Source: a virus. Taken from it: a stretch of 20,985 nucleotides of DNA. Location of the stretch: positions 1 to 20,985 of the IMG/VR virus record IMGVR_UViG_3300035181_000160; one strand, written 5' to 3'. The notes beneath the pieces are model-generated. The model was not told where the DNA came from. It saw only the letters and a list, made by a program, of their open reading frames with translations, and did not search any database. Shown one piece after another: positions 5,390 through 13,879 of this stretch (its first letter is position 1; every line of letters begins with the position of its first letter). The translations under genes were made by a program, and so were the position numbers.

Positions 5390-7339
5390 TTAGAATGCTC
5401 CCAATTTAGACAGCGCATCGGTCTTGTTGATGAAGTTCGGGTCTTGCTTTAACACACTTTGCAGGAAGGTTCGCGCAGCCGCTGGATTGGACTCGCGCAG
5501 CGCTTTGTATTGCCAGATGCGCGGGTCGGCGTTCTGGTCGAAAGCCATTTCCTTCTGCTGGTATCCAACTGCGTCTCTGTTGTTTCCATAAGGCGACAGG
5601 ATCGCGGCCTTGGCCTTAATCATCTCGTTTGCCCCAACAAGGTTTCCAACTGCTTCATGGATGGCATCTGCGGTCATGTGCGAACCTGGGAACGCGGATT
5701 CCAGGAGGGTTCTGGCCGAGTCCGTACCCATGCCACCCGAACCCAAGCGAGCAACGATTTGGCTGCTGTATTTGTTCAGCAGGTCATTCGCCGTCTGCGC
5801 GTCATTTGCCTGCGTTGTTCCTGGAATGAGCGAGATAAGACCGTTGGCAAAAGCCAGTTTACTTGATGCCGGTCCGACGATGGCTTTTTGTGCCAGTCCG
5901 TTGATGTTTTGCAGATATGACGTGGTGGTCTGCGCTTGGCGATTGGCTTCCTGAAGGCTAGCCCATGCTTCCTGACTCTTGGTCGCTTGCGTTGTAGCAG
6001 CGGAAGAATCACCAAGGCGCGGTCCTGCCGCCATCGGTTTAGGTTGAGCGTTACCGAAGATGCGCGAACCCTGCTCGTGCAGCATGATCCCGGTTCCAAC
6101 TGCCTGACGGATGGCGGGATTGTTTAGGTCGATTGGCTGGTTAGGATCAAGACCCAAACGATGCGCAACGTCCTTGATGTAGGCTTGGGTGTCGTTCTCG
6201 ATCGGAGGTGCCCAGCGGTTAATCACGCCGGAAAGCGTGTTGATTCCCTTCGCACTGTATGCTTTCAGGTTGTTATCGATTGCTAACAGCCCTTCCTGCG
6301 GGGTTGCAAACGACTGGAACCCGGTAGACGCGCCTTGCGGACGGAGGTTGCTAAAGTTGTTTCCCGGAACTCCACCGCCTGCTGCTTGAGCCGCGATCGT
6401 TTTCGGCATGAGCTCCATTTGCTGCGTCTGCGGATTGTAGGTCTGTACCATATCAACCATGCCGGAACCTGCCGATGTCCCTGCCGCGTTGCGTTGAAGT
6501 GCCTGCGGATAGGTGACAGGCTGGCCTTCAAGCGTCTGAAGCCCGCTAGGAGCAGTTGCTCCTTGGTTGTAGGTAGGCATAGTGCCACCAGGAATCTCAG
6601 GTACGAAGCCCACCGGCTGCATAGTAGTCGGGTTGATATACATGCCGTTCTTCTCGATCAGTCCGTCCTTGGCCGCTTTCTCCACTGTATATTGAGCTAT
6701 CGAACGCGGGTCAATTCCCTGCGCCTGCCAGTTATTCATTTCCTGAGTTGGTGCCGGTGCCGTCCTTGCCCAAAACGCCTTAGCCGCTTCCGGACTGAGA
6801 CCGTCGAGGATCATGGACTGGATGACGTTTTGCTGGTTGAATGGGTTAGCTTGAGCCGGGGAGCTGATAGGTGCCGAAGTCTGGCCCGAGTAGGGATTTG
6901 CCTGGGGTGTACCTGCCGAATTGGGAGCCAAGTAGGCCCCCTGTGAGAAAGGGCTAGACGCACCGCCTGGCGTCGGCTGTGCTGTAACCTGGGGAGTGGG
7001 TTGCGATTGGCCATACATCGAAATAGAGCCGTCACCTCCGTACCCTGGAAGCCGAGACAGCATCGCGTTCATATTTCCGATATTCTGCTTCATCAGGTAG
7101 GCATTCCCACCCGACGCCATCTTGCTACCACCAAGAACCTGCGCAAGGCTAGACAGGTATTGTGTGACCGAAGGCGCAACATAATGGCCGCTGATCATCT
7201 GTCCTTGGTTAGGTTGCATCCCTTGTTGCATCAGAGCCTGACCAAGCTGTATGGCCTGCTGTTGACGTGCATATTCTGTAGGGTCGAAGTTTGGATTATT
7301 CGCCATCCCAACCGACTCGAGGATATTTGGGTCTGCCAT
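5390..7339 (-). CDS. Virion protein with peptidoglycan-hydrolase-like domain (ejection module)
   Basis: 649 residues. The N-terminal 220 residues are rich in Gln, Pro, Asn and Ser. Around residues 320-430 lies a domain I recognise from virion-associated lytic proteins: GNNFSNLRP, GFQSFATPQEGLLAIDNNLK, GINTLSGVINRWAPP, NDTQAYIKDVAHRLGL and QPIDLNNPAIRQAV. Such domains occur in phage internal virion proteins thought to open the peptidoglycan locally during DNA entry. The C-terminal 200 residues are helical (LLNKYSSQIVARLGSGGMG onwards), suited to the inner channel. The gene starts 9 bases after the PP-loop fusion gene with a GGAAT ribosome site and abuts the next ejection gene. Hydrolase activity is inferred; a catalytic Glu cannot be assigned with certainty. 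Confidence 0.75.
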   Translation of the reverse strand: MADPNILESVGMANNPNFDPTEYARQQQAIQLGQALMQQGMQPNQGQMISGHYVAPSVTQYLSSLAQVLGGSKMASGGNAYLMKQNIGNMNAMLSRLPGYGGDGSISMYGQSQPTPQVTAQPTPGGASSPFSQGAYLAPNSAGTPQANPYSGQTSAPISSPAQANPFNQQNVIQSMILDGLSPEAAKAFWARTAPAPTQEMNNWQAQGIDPRSIAQYTVEKAAKDGLIEKNGMYINPTTMQPVGFVPEIPGGTMPTYNQGATAPSGLQTLEGQPVTYPQALQRNAAGTSAGSGMVDMVQTYNPQTQQMELMPKTIAAQAAGGGVPGNNFSNLRPQGASTGFQSFATPQEGLLAIDNNLKAYSAKGINTLSGVINRWAPPIENDTQAYIKDVAHRLGLDPNQPIDLNNPAIRQAVGTGIMLHEQGSRIFGNAQPKPMAAGPRLGDSSAATTQATKSQEAWASLQEANRQAQTTTSYLQNINGLAQKAIVGPASSKLAFANGLISLIPGTTQANDAQTANDLLNKYSSQIVARLGSGGMGTDSARTLLESAFPGSHMTADAIHEAVGNLVGANEMIKAKAAILSPYGNNRDAVGYQQKEMAFDQNADPRIWQYKALRESNPAAARTFLQSVLKQDPNFINKTDALSKLGAF

Positions 7340-7348
7340 GTTTATTCC

Positions 7349-8470
7349 CTAGTTATTCAGTTCACAAATTCCGCACTCGGCAACCAAGTTATTGACCGCG
7401 TTTTGTGCTGCTGCTGCCACGATAGATATTTTCTGCCGATATTCTTCGAACCTATCCGCGTGATGCTTTTTCAGGTACGCCCCGCGACCATCGCCCACCC
7501 ATGCTGTGCAGACTAGGCAATCCCCGGAATGTGGCATTCCCTCGGTGTAATAGCGTGGTATTTCCCAGCCGTTCTGCTTGATGTACTGGAAAACCTGCTC
7601 CGTACTCCAGTCCTCTATAGGATACAGGAACTCAAAGCCATCTAGCACATCCCCGGATCGGGCCGTACCCTTGAATAATTCATCAACCCGCTGCCCCCGG
7701 ATAATTAGCGTTATTCCGTCCTTTATCATCCGCTCATGCATTGGCTGCATGACTACACGCGAACAGCAGGAGAATCTATCCTGCAATAGCACGGTTTCAG
7801 CTACTCTTAGATTGTGGCTTGTCAGTGAGGAAGAATAAGGAATCACATCTGATGGCATCCCGTGGAGCGCGATAACTGAATCCCGTTTCCCGTCAATCTC
7901 GATAAAATTCGGGACGCTACGCCTGACTTTATCAACGACCTCGACCACTTCTGGAAATGGGTCTCCTGTATTAAGCCAATAGACCGTTATCCTGTCCAAA
8001 TAGGGCCGCATCATTTCCAGCGTAGCAATGGAATCCTTGCCGCCAGAAAATTGCAGTGCGATCCGTTCGTGTCTTGCAATGATCGAATCAAACAACTCTG
8101 GAAAAAAATCACGAACATCTGCAATTGGCTCATTTGCCGAGTCTAATATCGGCTGCATGAAGGCAGAAAACTCTGGATGCTGCATGAACGGGTCGTCACC
8201 GCCGTCGCATACATAGGCTTTGCATCCTGCTGGTCTGGCATCGTAGATACTGCACTGGTTATCAACATGGAACGGGCAGCCTGAAGCACGCACTGCATGG
8301 CGCATGGGTTTGTGGTTTGCCAGTTCCCTGCCGCTTATCTTGGCAGCTTCCTGCGCTTCGGTGATGGTCATCACCACAAGCCGGTCTGTCCCGCCCACAT
8401 TGCAGCACTTACCGCACCCTGTACCACAATAGGAAGGTAGTCTTTCGCTTGCAAATTGTTCAGGTGTCAT
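7349..8470 (-). CDS. YkgJ-type cysteine cluster fused to PAPS/APS-reductase-like PP-loop domain
   Basis: 373 residues from ATG 8470 (a TTG lies one codon earlier, but TGATG overlap with the upstream stop favours the ATG). Residues 15-95 form a YkgJ-like metal-binding domain with C15, C19, C22, C23, then C65 in GCPFH, C73 in QCSIYDARP, C83 and C88. Residues 135-325 form a PP-loop ATP-pyrophosphatase domain with SGGKDS at 142-147, NTGDPFPE at 167-174, CC at 235-236 and CLVC at 318-321. The CC plus CxxC pattern matches the iron-sulfur ligands of APS reductases. The tail ends AECGICELNN, close to the reductase ECGLH motif but with Cys for His. Likely cytoplasmic sulfur or adenylation chemistry; substrate unknown. 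DndC-like or thiolation roles are alternatives. It sits, unusually, between tail and ejection genes. Confidence 0.85.
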   Translation of the reverse strand: MTPEQFASERLPSYCGTGCGKCCNVGGTDRLVVMTITEAQEAAKISGRELANHKPMRHAVRASGCPFHVDNQCSIYDARPAGCKAYVCDGGDDPFMQHPEFSAFMQPILDSANEPIADVRDFFPELFDSIIARHERIALQFSGGKDSIATLEMMRPYLDRITVYWLNTGDPFPEVVEVVDKVRRSVPNFIEIDGKRDSVIALHGMPSDVIPYSSSLTSHNLRVAETVLLQDRFSCCSRVVMQPMHERMIKDGITLIIRGQRVDELFKGTARSGDVLDGFEFLYPIEDWSTEQVFQYIKQNGWEIPRYYTEGMPHSGDCLVCTAWVGDGRGAYLKKHHADRFEEYRQKISIVAAAAQNAVNNLVAECGICELNN

Positions 8471-9288
8471 CAATAGATTGCCGCCGCCATAGCAATTGTT
8501 CCAAGCCCTGAAGTGGTATTTGCAGATTGTGCGTTCTGTGCGTTGACGTTGCCGAGTTGTGCGTTGTAGCTGGAATTTGCCGCCCCCAACAAATCCGCCC
8601 CGGATGTAGTGGATTGTTGAGCCGAGTTGACATAGTTAGGATTCTGAACCTGGGATCCAGTGCGCAATGCGTTAATCATGTTGATAGGCTGCATCTGGTT
8701 ATAGGCCTGCTGGTTGAATGCCTGATTATTGGCGTTCAATCCCATATTCATGCCCGCTGTCGTGGCTTGTGCGTATAGGTTGTTATTATTCTGGTTCTGC
8801 TGCTGCCAGGCGTTTTTCCACGCCTCAGAACCTTGGGTTACTCCCTGATTGGCCAGTTGTGCGGTAAGGTAGTTATTCGATCGATCCACCTGAGGTTGCA
8901 GTTGGGACATCATCGCATCTTGATATGACTGTCCGGGGTTGATTCCCGTCGAAGGGAGTAAAGACATATCGACACCGGGTTTGCTCAGGACCTGATTGGC
9001 GTACTGAAGCCCGTTATTCGCCGTCCCCAATAGCCCTATAGACAGGTTATTGTTCCGATCCAGCATTGTTTGTTGTGCTGGAGTAAGTGTTTGCGTCGCC
9101 GTCCATCGGGCATTGACGTTCGATGGATCATTCGGCATATCGGTAGAATAGTTCAGGTTCCCGTAGGGCGTGACCTGATTTACCCGGTTCGCCTGGGCCG
9201 CATATTGAGCCGCCTCGAGATTGCCGGCCGCCGTTGCATTGGCTGCGCCTACATAATCTGGTGGCGGAGGTGAGGATGATTTACCCAT
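8470..9288 (-). CDS. Putative podophage tail/internal virion protein, Gln/Asn-rich
   Basis: 272 residues. The opening MGKSSSPPPPDYVGAANATA, followed by NLEAAQYAAQANRVNQVTPY and GNLNYS, is a hallmark I recognise from proteins encoded between the nozzle and ejection genes of podophages. The rest is unusually rich in Asn, Gln, Ala and Ser, with little charge (NAWQQQNQNNNNLYAQAT; NNQAFNQQAYNQMQPINM). That suggests an extended or helical-repeat structure rather than an enzyme. The C-terminus is Ala-rich (LGTIAMAAAIY). The start follows the acetyltransferase stop by one base and the stop overlaps the PP-loop gene start (TGATG). It is somewhat shorter than many relatives. Exact virion role unknown. 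Confidence 0.7.
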   Translation of the reverse strand: MGKSSSPPPPDYVGAANATAAGNLEAAQYAAQANRVNQVTPYGNLNYSTDMPNDPSNVNARWTATQTLTPAQQTMLDRNNNLSIGLLGTANNGLQYANQVLSKPGVDMSLLPSTGINPGQSYQDAMMSQLQPQVDRSNNYLTAQLANQGVTQGSEAWKNAWQQQNQNNNNLYAQATTAGMNMGLNANNQAFNQQAYNQMQPINMINALRTGSQVQNPNYVNSAQQSTTSGADLLGAANSSYNAQLGNVNAQNAQSANTTSGLGTIAMAAAIY

Positions 9289-9289
9289 A

Positions 9290-9688
9290 TTATTTCCAGT
9301 TCAAAATACGGCACTTGTCTCGCCATAAAACCATGATGAGTATGTCGCCGCCGTCATCCGCCGCGCTCTTCATCACGCCTTCTATTTCGTACCCGATGTG
9401 CTTGTTGAGCCGGATAGCCTTGGTGTTGCTGGCGTTCACCATACCGGTGACTCGCTTGAGGTTGCATTTGTTGAAACAGTAGTCCGCAGCAGCGATCCAG
9501 AACCCCTTAGGCGCAGGTTCGTCTTGCCGTTGATGTGCGATCATGTTCACGCCGTTGAATGACTCAAAGGCAAATCCAGCGATTAGTTTTTTGTCCTTGA
9601 CGTAGCCGATTCCTACGGTATTCGGTCCGATAGCCGACCCAACCGCCTCATAAACCCAGGCGGCGACTTCCGGGCCTTGGACAATCAT
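9290..9688 (-). CDS. GNAT-like N-acetyltransferase of the tail block
   Basis: 132 residues. The GNAT fold pattern is visible: a central strand GVGYVKDKKLIAGFAFESF-like (GIGYVKDKKLIAGFAF here), a middle helix WIAAADYCFNKCNLKRV, then VNASNTKAIRLNKHIGYEIE, which matches the acetyl-CoA-binding and C-terminal motifs of RimJ/RimL-type acetyltransferases, and a final IMVLWRDKCRI strand. Similar short acetyltransferases are common beside the tail nozzle gene in podophages, but their substrates are unknown. It could modify a virion or host protein. It is packed between the nozzle gene (TAAATG) and the 272-residue gene (1-base gap), so it is co-expressed with structural genes. Confidence 0.78.
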   Translation of the reverse strand: MIVQGPEVAAWVYEAVGSAIGPNTVGIGYVKDKKLIAGFAFESFNGVNMIAHQRQDEPAPKGFWIAAADYCFNKCNLKRVTGMVNASNTKAIRLNKHIGYEIEGVMKSAADDGGDILIMVLWRDKCRILNWK

Positions 9689-11209
9689 TTATAGTATATC
9701 CCCTGGTTCCATGACAATATCCGTCGAAATCCAAATAACGTTTGTTCCCTTGGCCGCACACATGAAACGAGGCGCAGCGGCATAGCCGATGCCGTTGATT
9801 CCGTTCCACGACTTATAAATGGAGTTAGAGCCTCCGCCCCATTTCGCAGTGCCCCATATCGACATACCCCATACACCCCCGGATGGTGTTGAGTAGGTGA
9901 GAGAGGTACTCGGTGCCGTAGTGTCAAAATCTACATTGACGTTGGCATAAATGGCCGGCTGACCATTCGATGACACAATCGGGCGCATCATTGTGAATCG
10001 TTTTAACTTTCCGCGAAGCTCGAAATAGTTAAATGCCTGCAAGGCATCGCCGTTGATCTGTACCCCGGCATCGTCGTTGCCATACCATGCCTGACCGACA
10101 TAGCCATTGCCGCCGAAGTAAATCTGATCCTGCGACATTTCCCAGGTATTCGCTGCCCATCCGGTGAACCTGCACCATGCTCCGGTCACTGTGTTCTGCA
10201 CGTACTGTTCCTGTGACCCTGTGGCGACAGGTACATTCAGAAGCAGGGCATTTTGCAGTGGATAGGTGGTCGCCTGCCAGCCGAAGTTAGAACCATAAAG
10301 CGATGTGGCCGAACTGATAGCCCACTGAATATTGTCGGTGAGCGTTCCCTTATTTCCCAAATCAGAGAAGAACCTACCCTGGCTCATCGGGGTGAGTCCT
10401 TCCTGAGAAATCAGAAGCAAATCCGATCCGAATTTGGTAAAGCACTTACGCCCCATCGGTGAGCCGACATACCAGGTTCCGAGCAGACTCCATGCGTTCG
10501 AGTTGGAAGGATCGGTTCCGGAGTAGATCAGCATTTCACCCTCGGAGGTGATGAAGGCGACGTAATCGGACATTCCGAAACCGCCCTCTACCGTCCATTC
10601 GGCCATGCTGACCAGATACCCGCCCCTGCGACATAGCGAGCCGAAATCAAGCGAATTCGCAGTGCCTCCGACCGAGATAACCGGCAGATACCAAGCCCTC
10701 AAGCTTTTGGTTTCGATGAACCACACCCGCTGCTTAGCCACATATGGGTGAGTTAGCAGGGTTGTTGTGATACCGGTTATCGCAGGAGTAGAAGCCCCAT
10801 CGATGGCCGTCCAGGTAGTGCCGTTGTACAGAAGCGGCTTGTCTATGCCGTTCGCCAGATAGAGGAAGTTCCCACCCGGAGTGGCGACGTTGGTGTGATA
10901 CCACTTGTCTGAGGTTGCAGTAGTCCATACCGGTGCGCCCACCGCCCCGCCTGCGGTCACATCGTAGATATACGCGCCAGAGGCAGCAAACAGCTTTGTA
11001 TTAGCCCCGGCGTTGTAGGACATGACCGCATTGACCTGCCCACCCAGACCTGTAGCAAACTGCCTGTATCCATTGCGCAATATTACATCGGACGGACGCG
11101 GGAACCAGTTATTCAGATAGACCGCATTATTGGGCGGCATCTCTCCCAAAGAGTTCTTCGCGTCCCATCCCCCAACCGGGGCTGATAGTGAAAACGGGTT
11201 ACTGGCCAT
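9689..11209 (-). CDS. Tail nozzle / DNA stabilisation protein (P22 gp10-like)
   Basis: 506 residues. The start NPFSLSAPVGGWDAKNSLGE is followed by MPPNNAVYLNNWFPRPSDV and then repeated beta blades: FAASGAYIYDV, FLYLANGIDKPLLYNGTTW, DYVAFITSEGEMLIYSGTDP and YFGGNGYVGQAWYGNDDAG. This is typical of the beta-propeller tail nozzle proteins of short-tailed phages (P22 gp10 type, T7 gp12 type). The C-terminus shows TMMRPIVSSNGQPAIYANVN and Trp-rich GVWGMSIWGTAKWGG. It should form the distal tube of the short tail and hold packaged DNA. Length fits the family. It overlaps the adaptor gene by 11 bases, consistent with matched expression. Confidence 0.85.
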   Translation of the reverse strand: MASNPFSLSAPVGGWDAKNSLGEMPPNNAVYLNNWFPRPSDVILRNGYRQFATGLGGQVNAVMSYNAGANTKLFAASGAYIYDVTAGGAVGAPVWTTATSDKWYHTNVATPGGNFLYLANGIDKPLLYNGTTWTAIDGASTPAITGITTTLLTHPYVAKQRVWFIETKSLRAWYLPVISVGGTANSLDFGSLCRRGGYLVSMAEWTVEGGFGMSDYVAFITSEGEMLIYSGTDPSNSNAWSLLGTWYVGSPMGRKCFTKFGSDLLLISQEGLTPMSQGRFFSDLGNKGTLTDNIQWAISSATSLYGSNFGWQATTYPLQNALLLNVPVATGSQEQYVQNTVTGAWCRFTGWAANTWEMSQDQIYFGGNGYVGQAWYGNDDAGVQINGDALQAFNYFELRGKLKRFTMMRPIVSSNGQPAIYANVNVDFDTTAPSTSLTYSTPSGGVWGMSIWGTAKWGGGSNSIYKSWNGINGIGYAAAPRFMCAAKGTNVIWISTDIVMEPGDIL

Positions 11210-12558: not shown

Positions 12559-12577
12559 TCCACTCAGTGAGTGATGA

Positions 12578-12883: not shown

Positions 12884-13879
12884 TTAGGCGATCAACGCGC
12901 CGCAGAATTGCGGACCGTTGGAGGTGAGGTTGCCTGCCCAGCCAATGAGTTTGGTAATCGCGTCTTGGTTGACGGATTGCCGTTCGCCACCGATGGGAAC
13001 GTAGTTGCGGTCCTTGTGTGGACGGAGGAACAGATAGTCCGTGTTCAGGAACCACATGTGGTTTGCGGTCGCGTGAGCACCGATACCACCGCCCAGAACA
13101 ACATCCGCCGCCGTGCCGCCGCCGTAGAATTTAAGTGCAGCGAAACCTGCGCCGGCCATCTCGGGGTCAGATACCTTCTGAATGGCTTGCAGAGAATTGA
13201 CGTACATGCCGTAATAGGTATTGTCGGCTACGATCAGGTCGGCTTTATTGTTCCCCCGGATCAGTTTTACGGCCAGTTGTGTCATGTACTGCTGGATGTT
13301 GGCCGCTGAGACCGGTGCGCCGCCGTTGGTTACTCCGGAGTATACCTGGTTCTGCCAGAACGTCCATGTGGATCGAGCGATGCCGCCGTAAGTCGTACCG
13401 GACGGCGAATCTGCAATGGCCAGAGCCAAACCTGTCAGGTTCTTGCCGTTGTTGCCTGTGCCATCACCGTAAAGGTCGGTATCAATCCGATTCATCAGTT
13501 GGGCTTCTGCGACCTTAACTCGACCTTCGAGCAGGTCTATGATCTGTTCCTTGCCACTGTTCTGCAGCATTTCCAGACCGGAGATCGTTACCGCAGCGGC
13601 ATACTGCGCGATGGAAAACTGCGCAGAGCTGATCGGGCTGTTCGGGGTTACGTTAAGCACTTCGTAACCGGAATAGCTATTCACGTTAGACGTAGTGGTG
13701 TCGTTGTACATAATCTCTTCCAAGATCACGTTACCACCAGAAAATGGGCGAATGTTCCCTTTCTGCTTCAGACGTAGGAGAAGAGGGTTATTTTGGGTGA
13801 CATTATCTGCCAGTTCGCCGGAGCGATTTTGAATGGTAGTGGCGATAATGTCGGATATTGCACCGTTGGCGAAGGCCAT
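12884..13879 (-). CDS. Major capsid protein
   Basis: 331 residues. It follows the scaffold gene and precedes a small, strongly translated protein. The N-terminal helix (MAFANGAISDIIATTIQNRS), NPLLLRLKQKGNIRPFSGG with GNVILEEIMYND (an N-arm/E-loop-like stretch), EMLQNSGKEQIIDLLEGRVK as a spine-helix-like segment, DTDLYGDGTGNNGKNLTGLA and the C-terminal LNTDYLFLRPHKDRNYVPIG match capsid proteins of BPP-1-like and related phages, which adopt an HK97-type fold. Length is about that of the BPP-1 protein. Ribosome site AAGGA is 8 bases upstream. Fold inferred from resemblance. Confidence 0.88.
   Translation of the reverse strand: MAFANGAISDIIATTIQNRSGELADNVTQNNPLLLRLKQKGNIRPFSGGNVILEEIMYNDTTTSNVNSYSGYEVLNVTPNSPISSAQFSIAQYAAAVTISGLEMLQNSGKEQIIDLLEGRVKVAEAQLMNRIDTDLYGDGTGNNGKNLTGLALAIADSPSGTTYGGIARSTWTFWQNQVYSGVTNGGAPVSAANIQQYMTQLAVKLIRGNNKADLIVADNTYYGMYVNSLQAIQKVSDPEMAGAGFAALKFYGGGTAADVVLGGGIGAHATANHMWFLNTDYLFLRPHKDRNYVPIGGERQSVNQDAITKLIGWAGNLTSNGPQFCGALIA

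Follow-up and report, generated by a model that had tools for sequence, protein, structure and literature searches.

The cysteines of the CC and CxxC motifs of APS reductases ligate a [4Fe-4S] cluster, and the cysteine of their C-terminal ECGLH tail is catalytic. Phage genes labelled cysH or PAPS reductase are routinely tallied as sulfur-metabolism auxiliary genes, and the closest described relative of the gene reported here is of this kind: gp65 of phage JC1 exemplifies a 'PAPS reductase' moron of Lessievirus/Bcep22-like phages (PHROG 424). A PP-loop of related type occurs in DNA phosphorothioation, where DndC, a [4Fe-4S] protein and ATP pyrophosphatase, receives sulfur from DndA, for which the host IscS can substitute (PMC7188994), and where one cluster cysteine of DndC is essential (PMC11662687). 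In FliB, which methylates flagellin, methyl transfer requires a [4Fe-4S] cluster bound by a PF03692-like CX4CX3CC motif (PMC8598068).

Here we describe a gene that fuses a YkgJ-type cysteine module (CxxCxxCC) to a PP-loop domain (PAPS_reduct / PHROG 424), carried among the structural genes of a 20,985-base contig (the window) from an uncultured tailed phage. It occupies 7349..8470 on the minus strand (ATG at 8470, stop at 7349) and encodes 373 aa; the coordinates agree with those of a first-pass annotation of the sequence, to which we add the strand. The gene family is real, conserved and largely known already, while its accessory YkgJ domain is unusual; our literature search for a YkgJ-PAPS reductase fusion found no paper with both terms.

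Two cysteine signatures in one protein

Both halves of the fusion score above their Pfam cut-offs, CxxCxxCC (PF03692) over residues 15-86 (E=5.5e-7, 30.6 bits against a cut-off of 23) and PAPS_reduct (PF01507) over residues 137-318 (E=1.2e-14, 55.2 bits against 22.5), so neither is a chance match and the fusion proposed in the first-pass annotation is borne out. The PHROG 424 profile, 'phosphoadenosine phosphosulfate reductase', matches the window protein (E=2.1e-34) as well as all 79 aligned members of the family.

The PP-loop domain, of PAPS/APS reductase fold, spans residues 125-350 (7421..8098, minus strand, as are the motifs that follow). The SGGKDS loop at residues 142-147 (8030..8047) reads SGG[KR]DS in 79/79 aligned rows, the CC at residues 235-236 (7763..7768) is present in all 79, and the CLVC motif at residues 318-321 (7508..7519) is conserved in the 78/78 rows that reach that point; CC and CLVC are the probable Fe-S ligands. 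These motifs, all picked out in the first reading, are thus conserved family-wide, the CC..CxxC pair being of APS-reductase type. Across these 79 diverse rows S142, G143, G144, D146, S147, E174, D208, C235, C236, P243, R258 and G259 are invariant, and residue 145 is K or R. The collection was scanned with either SGG[KR]DS or the CxxC stretch as the pattern and the motifs were then required at the next step, which removed nothing but copies that were truncated or broken and a pair of very distant hits; CC never served as a search pattern. The CC/CxxC set is invariant, with truncated copies as the exception. In one copy of the fusion gene (L006:4448-5537) the frame is broken just after SGGKDS, by natural decay or by a sequence or assembly error.

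The YkgJ-type cluster covers residues 15-88 (8207..8428, minus strand), with cysteines at C15, C19, C22, C23, C65, C73, C83 and C88. All eight are present in YkgJ order, as first described, but they are not conserved as a set of eight: L002, a relative with 97% identity, has Tyr in place of C88, whereas the other seven do not vary among relatives or among viral YkgJ proteins that stand alone. The N-terminus of the fusion has both the YkgJ seven-cysteine signature and a score above the Pfam gathering threshold. It shares with the YkgJ-family / FliB N-terminal motif (PF03692) all seven core cysteines and the Y..RP..C end, but here the module is joined to a PP-loop enzyme and the remainder of FliB is missing. 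By analogy with FliB, the module is probably a second metal site, likely a [4Fe-4S] one.

AlphaFold models the PP-loop domain with high confidence (pLDDT 87-98 in 10-residue blocks covering residues 131-360), whereas confidence is low for the last residues and for much of the YkgJ part; the latter stays at a pLDDT of about 45-75 in two runs, and a search for solved structures related to it by sequence returned none. Among solved folds, the PP-loop domain best matches those of PAPS and APS reductases (VIA Z about 15-16 over 180-199 residues, rmsd 2.8-3.9), followed by GMP synthetases and ATP sulfurylase; the [4Fe-4S] thiolases NcsA, LarE and TtuA also match, at Z about 11.

The PP-loop core departs from CysH

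Taken with the annotation as 'PAPS reductase' of the homologues in the Burkholderia phages JC1, CSP3 and BcepIL02, this fold would suit an active assimilatory APS/PAPS reductase (CysH), one that raises sulfur assimilation by the host and its cysteine supply during infection, as phage papers propose. For comparison we took a genuine CysH, adjoining CysD, from Burkholderiales host genomes with prophage relatives (CysH L136). The spacing from CC to CxxC has the same value, 82, in this CysH and in the window protein, and in a profile alignment the CC and CxxC of the latter fall on those of the Mycobacterium tuberculosis APS reductase. Fold, CC and CxxC spacing are therefore common ground with CysH (TIGR02055), but the substrate loop is not. 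CysH L136 has SSLAAED at the position of the phage SGG[KR]DS, and the degenerate CysH-type loop is absent from the family, SGG[KR]DS occurring in every row, which gives the family the look of an ATP pyrophosphatase; CysD, SspD and DndC have the intact loop too, unlike CysH. Since CC and CxxC match CysH and the loop does not, an APS-reductase-type Fe-S site and an ATP-type loop appear to be combined in one protein. The residue after CC also differs, being Lys in CysH L136 and mostly I/L/V in the phage family, with no conserved Lys, and the curated TIGR02055 model for assimilatory APS reductase gives 30.2 bits against a cut-off of 235.3.

The C-terminal ECGIC (residues 365-369; 7364..7378, minus strand) had been read in the first-pass annotation as a redox tail altered from His to Cys. 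The motif is there, where a long helix predicted by AlphaFold (residues 338-366) ends, but it is lineage-specific and is not the CysH ECGLH tail. Only 11/102 rows have a cysteine within the last 14 residues, and most family members have none near the C-terminus. In CysH L136 the ECGLH cysteine lies 25 residues past CxxC, while the tail cysteines of the window protein lie at +45 and +48. The redox-tail reading fails because ECGIC is unconserved and its spacing is wrong (45 residues after CxxC against 25). The family gene is, moreover, tied to virion genes, not to sulfur genes. With an intact ATP PP-loop in place of the substrate loop, sulfonucleotide reduction by the window protein is disfavoured, and we regard a working CysH as rather improbable. 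The 'PAPS reductase' annotation of the family is probably misleading, and tallies of such genes as auxiliary sulfur genes may mislead in turn, because the family is without the sulfonucleotide-reduction signature and has an intact ATP-pyrophosphatase signature.

Resemblance to SspD and DndC

Judged by its motifs, the PP-loop family looks closer in logic to SspD and DndC, with an APS-reductase-type Fe-S site. It shares with these phosphorothioation proteins the SGG[KR]DS loop, intact and of ATP-pyrophosphatase type, and the layout of a Cys followed by CxxC, and some of the SspD sequence that follows CxxC resembles the phage profile (LK..HPEA). It differs from them in having CC and not a single Cys, and in lying far under the DndC cut-off (11.2 bits against 290.4 for the curated model); the family model for DndC likewise found no match in the phage's own record. 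PADLOC reports an SspD match (E=1.2e-4), but the profile scores, 40 bits for SspD and 37.5 bits for CysH, leave the two unseparated as candidates for nearest cellular kin, and the top NCBIfam matches are uncharacterised PRK13795-type proteins. Where the first reading had allowed ATP or adenylyl-sulfate binding, the DndC/SspD-like PP-loop is the better fit and the sulfonucleotide-reductase half of the proposal is unsupported.

The resemblance, and the ability of host IscS to serve the Dnd system (PMC7188994), would suit an enzyme that thiolates phage DNA (as phosphorothioate) or tRNA with host IscS as donor, protecting the DNA or adjusting translation. Known phosphorothioation, however, needs DndD/E or SspB/C, and no such partners (dndD/dndE, sspB/sspC) were seen among the genes scanned in the 21-kb window fragment or in the inspected parts of JC1; the DndC model is unmatched, and the gene is apparently expressed late, beside ejection proteins. 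A search of the window for structured RNA or tRNA genes found none. Altogether we consider nucleic acid thiolation quite unlikely.

A conserved neighbourhood of virion genes

In the window the fusion gene lies between structural genes with coupled starts, as first noted. Upstream, a virion structural protein gene (PHROG 6121; 8470..9288, minus strand) overlaps its start with its own stop (TGATG), and a GNAT acetyltransferase (PHROG 4470; 9290..9688, minus strand), supported by Pfam and PHROG matches and conserved in position, lies one gene upstream of the virion gene. Downstream, 9 nt separate the fusion-gene stop from the start of the gene for a large internal virion or ejection-type protein with a lytic-enzyme-like segment (PHROG 873, 7182, 2276; 5390..7339, minus strand). 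The only same-strand terminator-like sites listed between the fusion gene and position 12561 are one far upstream (12561-12537) and one inside the gene at 9689-11209, although the consensus scan found fewer sites than shuffled sequences did and is weak evidence. The start/stop coupling and the placement of these sites suggest that the fusion gene belongs to one long late operon. Whole-gene dN/dS between the window and near relatives is 0.11-0.17.

The same order recurs across the family. Of the 96 loci having at least 3 kb of upstream DNA, 75 have a same-strand GNAT gene upstream, separated from the PP-loop codons by a median of 1.1 kb, or space for about one gene; wherever annotation or profiles identify the intervening gene, it is a virion gene. 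The comparison of neighbourhoods called for in the first-pass annotation thus gives GNAT, virion gene and PP-loop enzyme as the common arrangement, and the remaining 21/96 loci have no detectable GNAT. In JC1 the virion proteome holds gp64 (the upstream neighbour of gp65), gp67 and gp68, and lists neither gp63 (the GNAT) nor gp65 (the homologue) (PMC9144972). Because gp65 is missing from the list while its neighbours are in it, these data argue indirectly against the earlier suggestion of a virion-packaged enzyme, bearing in mind that gp65 is the unfused form and that absence from a list is not proof (PMC9144972).

This arrangement invites the idea that the GNAT and the PP-loop enzyme, with a methyltransferase or YkgJ domain in some phages, act together as a cassette whose target for post-translational modification is the virion protein encoded between them. 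There are analogies: PP-loop proteins of the QueC family are reported to attach deazaguanine to proteins (PMC13279940), and FliB, with its PF03692-like motif, acts on flagellin (PMC8598068); the presence of gp64 in the JC1 virion, with gp63 and gp65 unlisted, is what would be expected of enzymes acting on gp64 (PMC9144972). Against this, the GNAT is undetected in about a fifth of the loci (21/96), and synteny within a fixed late operon may mean shared timing only. We hold this specific proposal to be unlikely.

A modular N-terminus

The PP-loop half is a member of PHROG 424, a large family in podophages. A tblastn search against named phages matched eight Burkholderia phage records at about 50% identity over residues 125-349, together with an Aeromonas phage and a metagenomic phage; the Burkholderia homologues likewise sit between virion genes. 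JC1 gp65 has about 50% PP-loop identity, the same motifs and the same gene order, but is 240 aa long, has no YkgJ domain and ends in MEIGG without a terminal Cys. The YkgJ domain is absent from the named-phage homologues inspected (JC1, phiA008, MW202711), and the N-terminal domain alone gave no significant match against named phages. Profile searching brought up at least 383 relatives in viral contigs, of which 80 were kept, and a further 15 loci lie in bacterial genome contigs, several of them from Burkholderiales or Alphaproteobacteria. On contig C40 of G002, a Caballeronia genome, a second, different PAPS_reduct-type gene (L144, with SGGKDS and GCMPC) accompanies a prophage relative.

Near copies of the entire fusion occur in a handful of contigs, with remoter fusions in L089, L132 and L133. 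A tree of 102 cores gathers the rows with YkgJ into a single supported group of eight, to which the unfused L018, L019 and L033 also belong. L019 and L133 share about 87-92% DNA identity around the YkgJ segment, and L019 lacks about 357 bp. Since these otherwise near-identical phages differ by that segment, the YkgJ module can be cleanly gained or lost, and the idea that it is essential to the core was rejected: core and flanks of L019 are near-identical to those of L133. A motif search of the DNA flanking the first 105 loci found no split version, with a stand-alone phage YkgJ beside an unfused enzyme.

Most family members have a bare N-terminus. In two other clades (13 rows) a class I SAM methyltransferase domain occupies the position of YkgJ (Pfam Methyltransf_11, up to E=1.5e-18); these relatives include L036, L070, L077, L062, L069, L097 and L031. 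It is suggestive, no more, that a methyltransferase alternates here with a domain that has been characterised in a methyl-transfer enzyme.

Proposed mechanism

We favour, with a probability of about one half, a late-expressed PP-loop ATP pyrophosphatase that bears a [4Fe-4S] cluster, activates its substrate with ATP and then transfers sulfur, the YkgJ domain being a lineage-specific addition. From the invariant motifs and the fold we infer cluster binding, ATP use and sulfur transfer, as follows. C235, C236, C318 and C321 would hold the cluster; ATP would activate a substrate group by adenylation, with release of PPi at SGGKDS; and sulfur from a host cysteine desulfurase such as IscS would be moved to the activated target, as in SspD, DndC and TtuA-type thiolases. 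The window protein would reduce neither APS nor PAPS. The YkgJ module may, as a second metal site, assist or extend the modification, in the place where sister lineages have a SAM methyltransferase or nothing. Candidate substrates are a virion protein, phage DNA or tRNA.

More broadly, it is tempting to speculate that GNAT, virion protein, PP-loop/Fe-S enzyme and swappable YkgJ or SAM-methyltransferase domain constitute a widespread podophage cassette that adds a new multi-step modification to a virion protein or phage DNA, and that the 'PAPS reductase' label is wrong; we offer this only tentatively. Conserved in a late operon and equipped with exchangeable modification domains, such a cassette would be a candidate, open to testing, for a phage modification not yet described.

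Other features of the genome

The end of the contig (20510-20983, minus strand) encodes the C-terminal part of an N6/N4 DNA methylase (PF01555, E=4.1e-17). The major capsid protein (12887-13879, minus strand) has 50% identity to its counterpart in Myxococcus phage Mx8 and the terminase is nearest to that of Rhodoferax phage P26218; as capsid and terminase have different kin, the genome appears to be mosaic.
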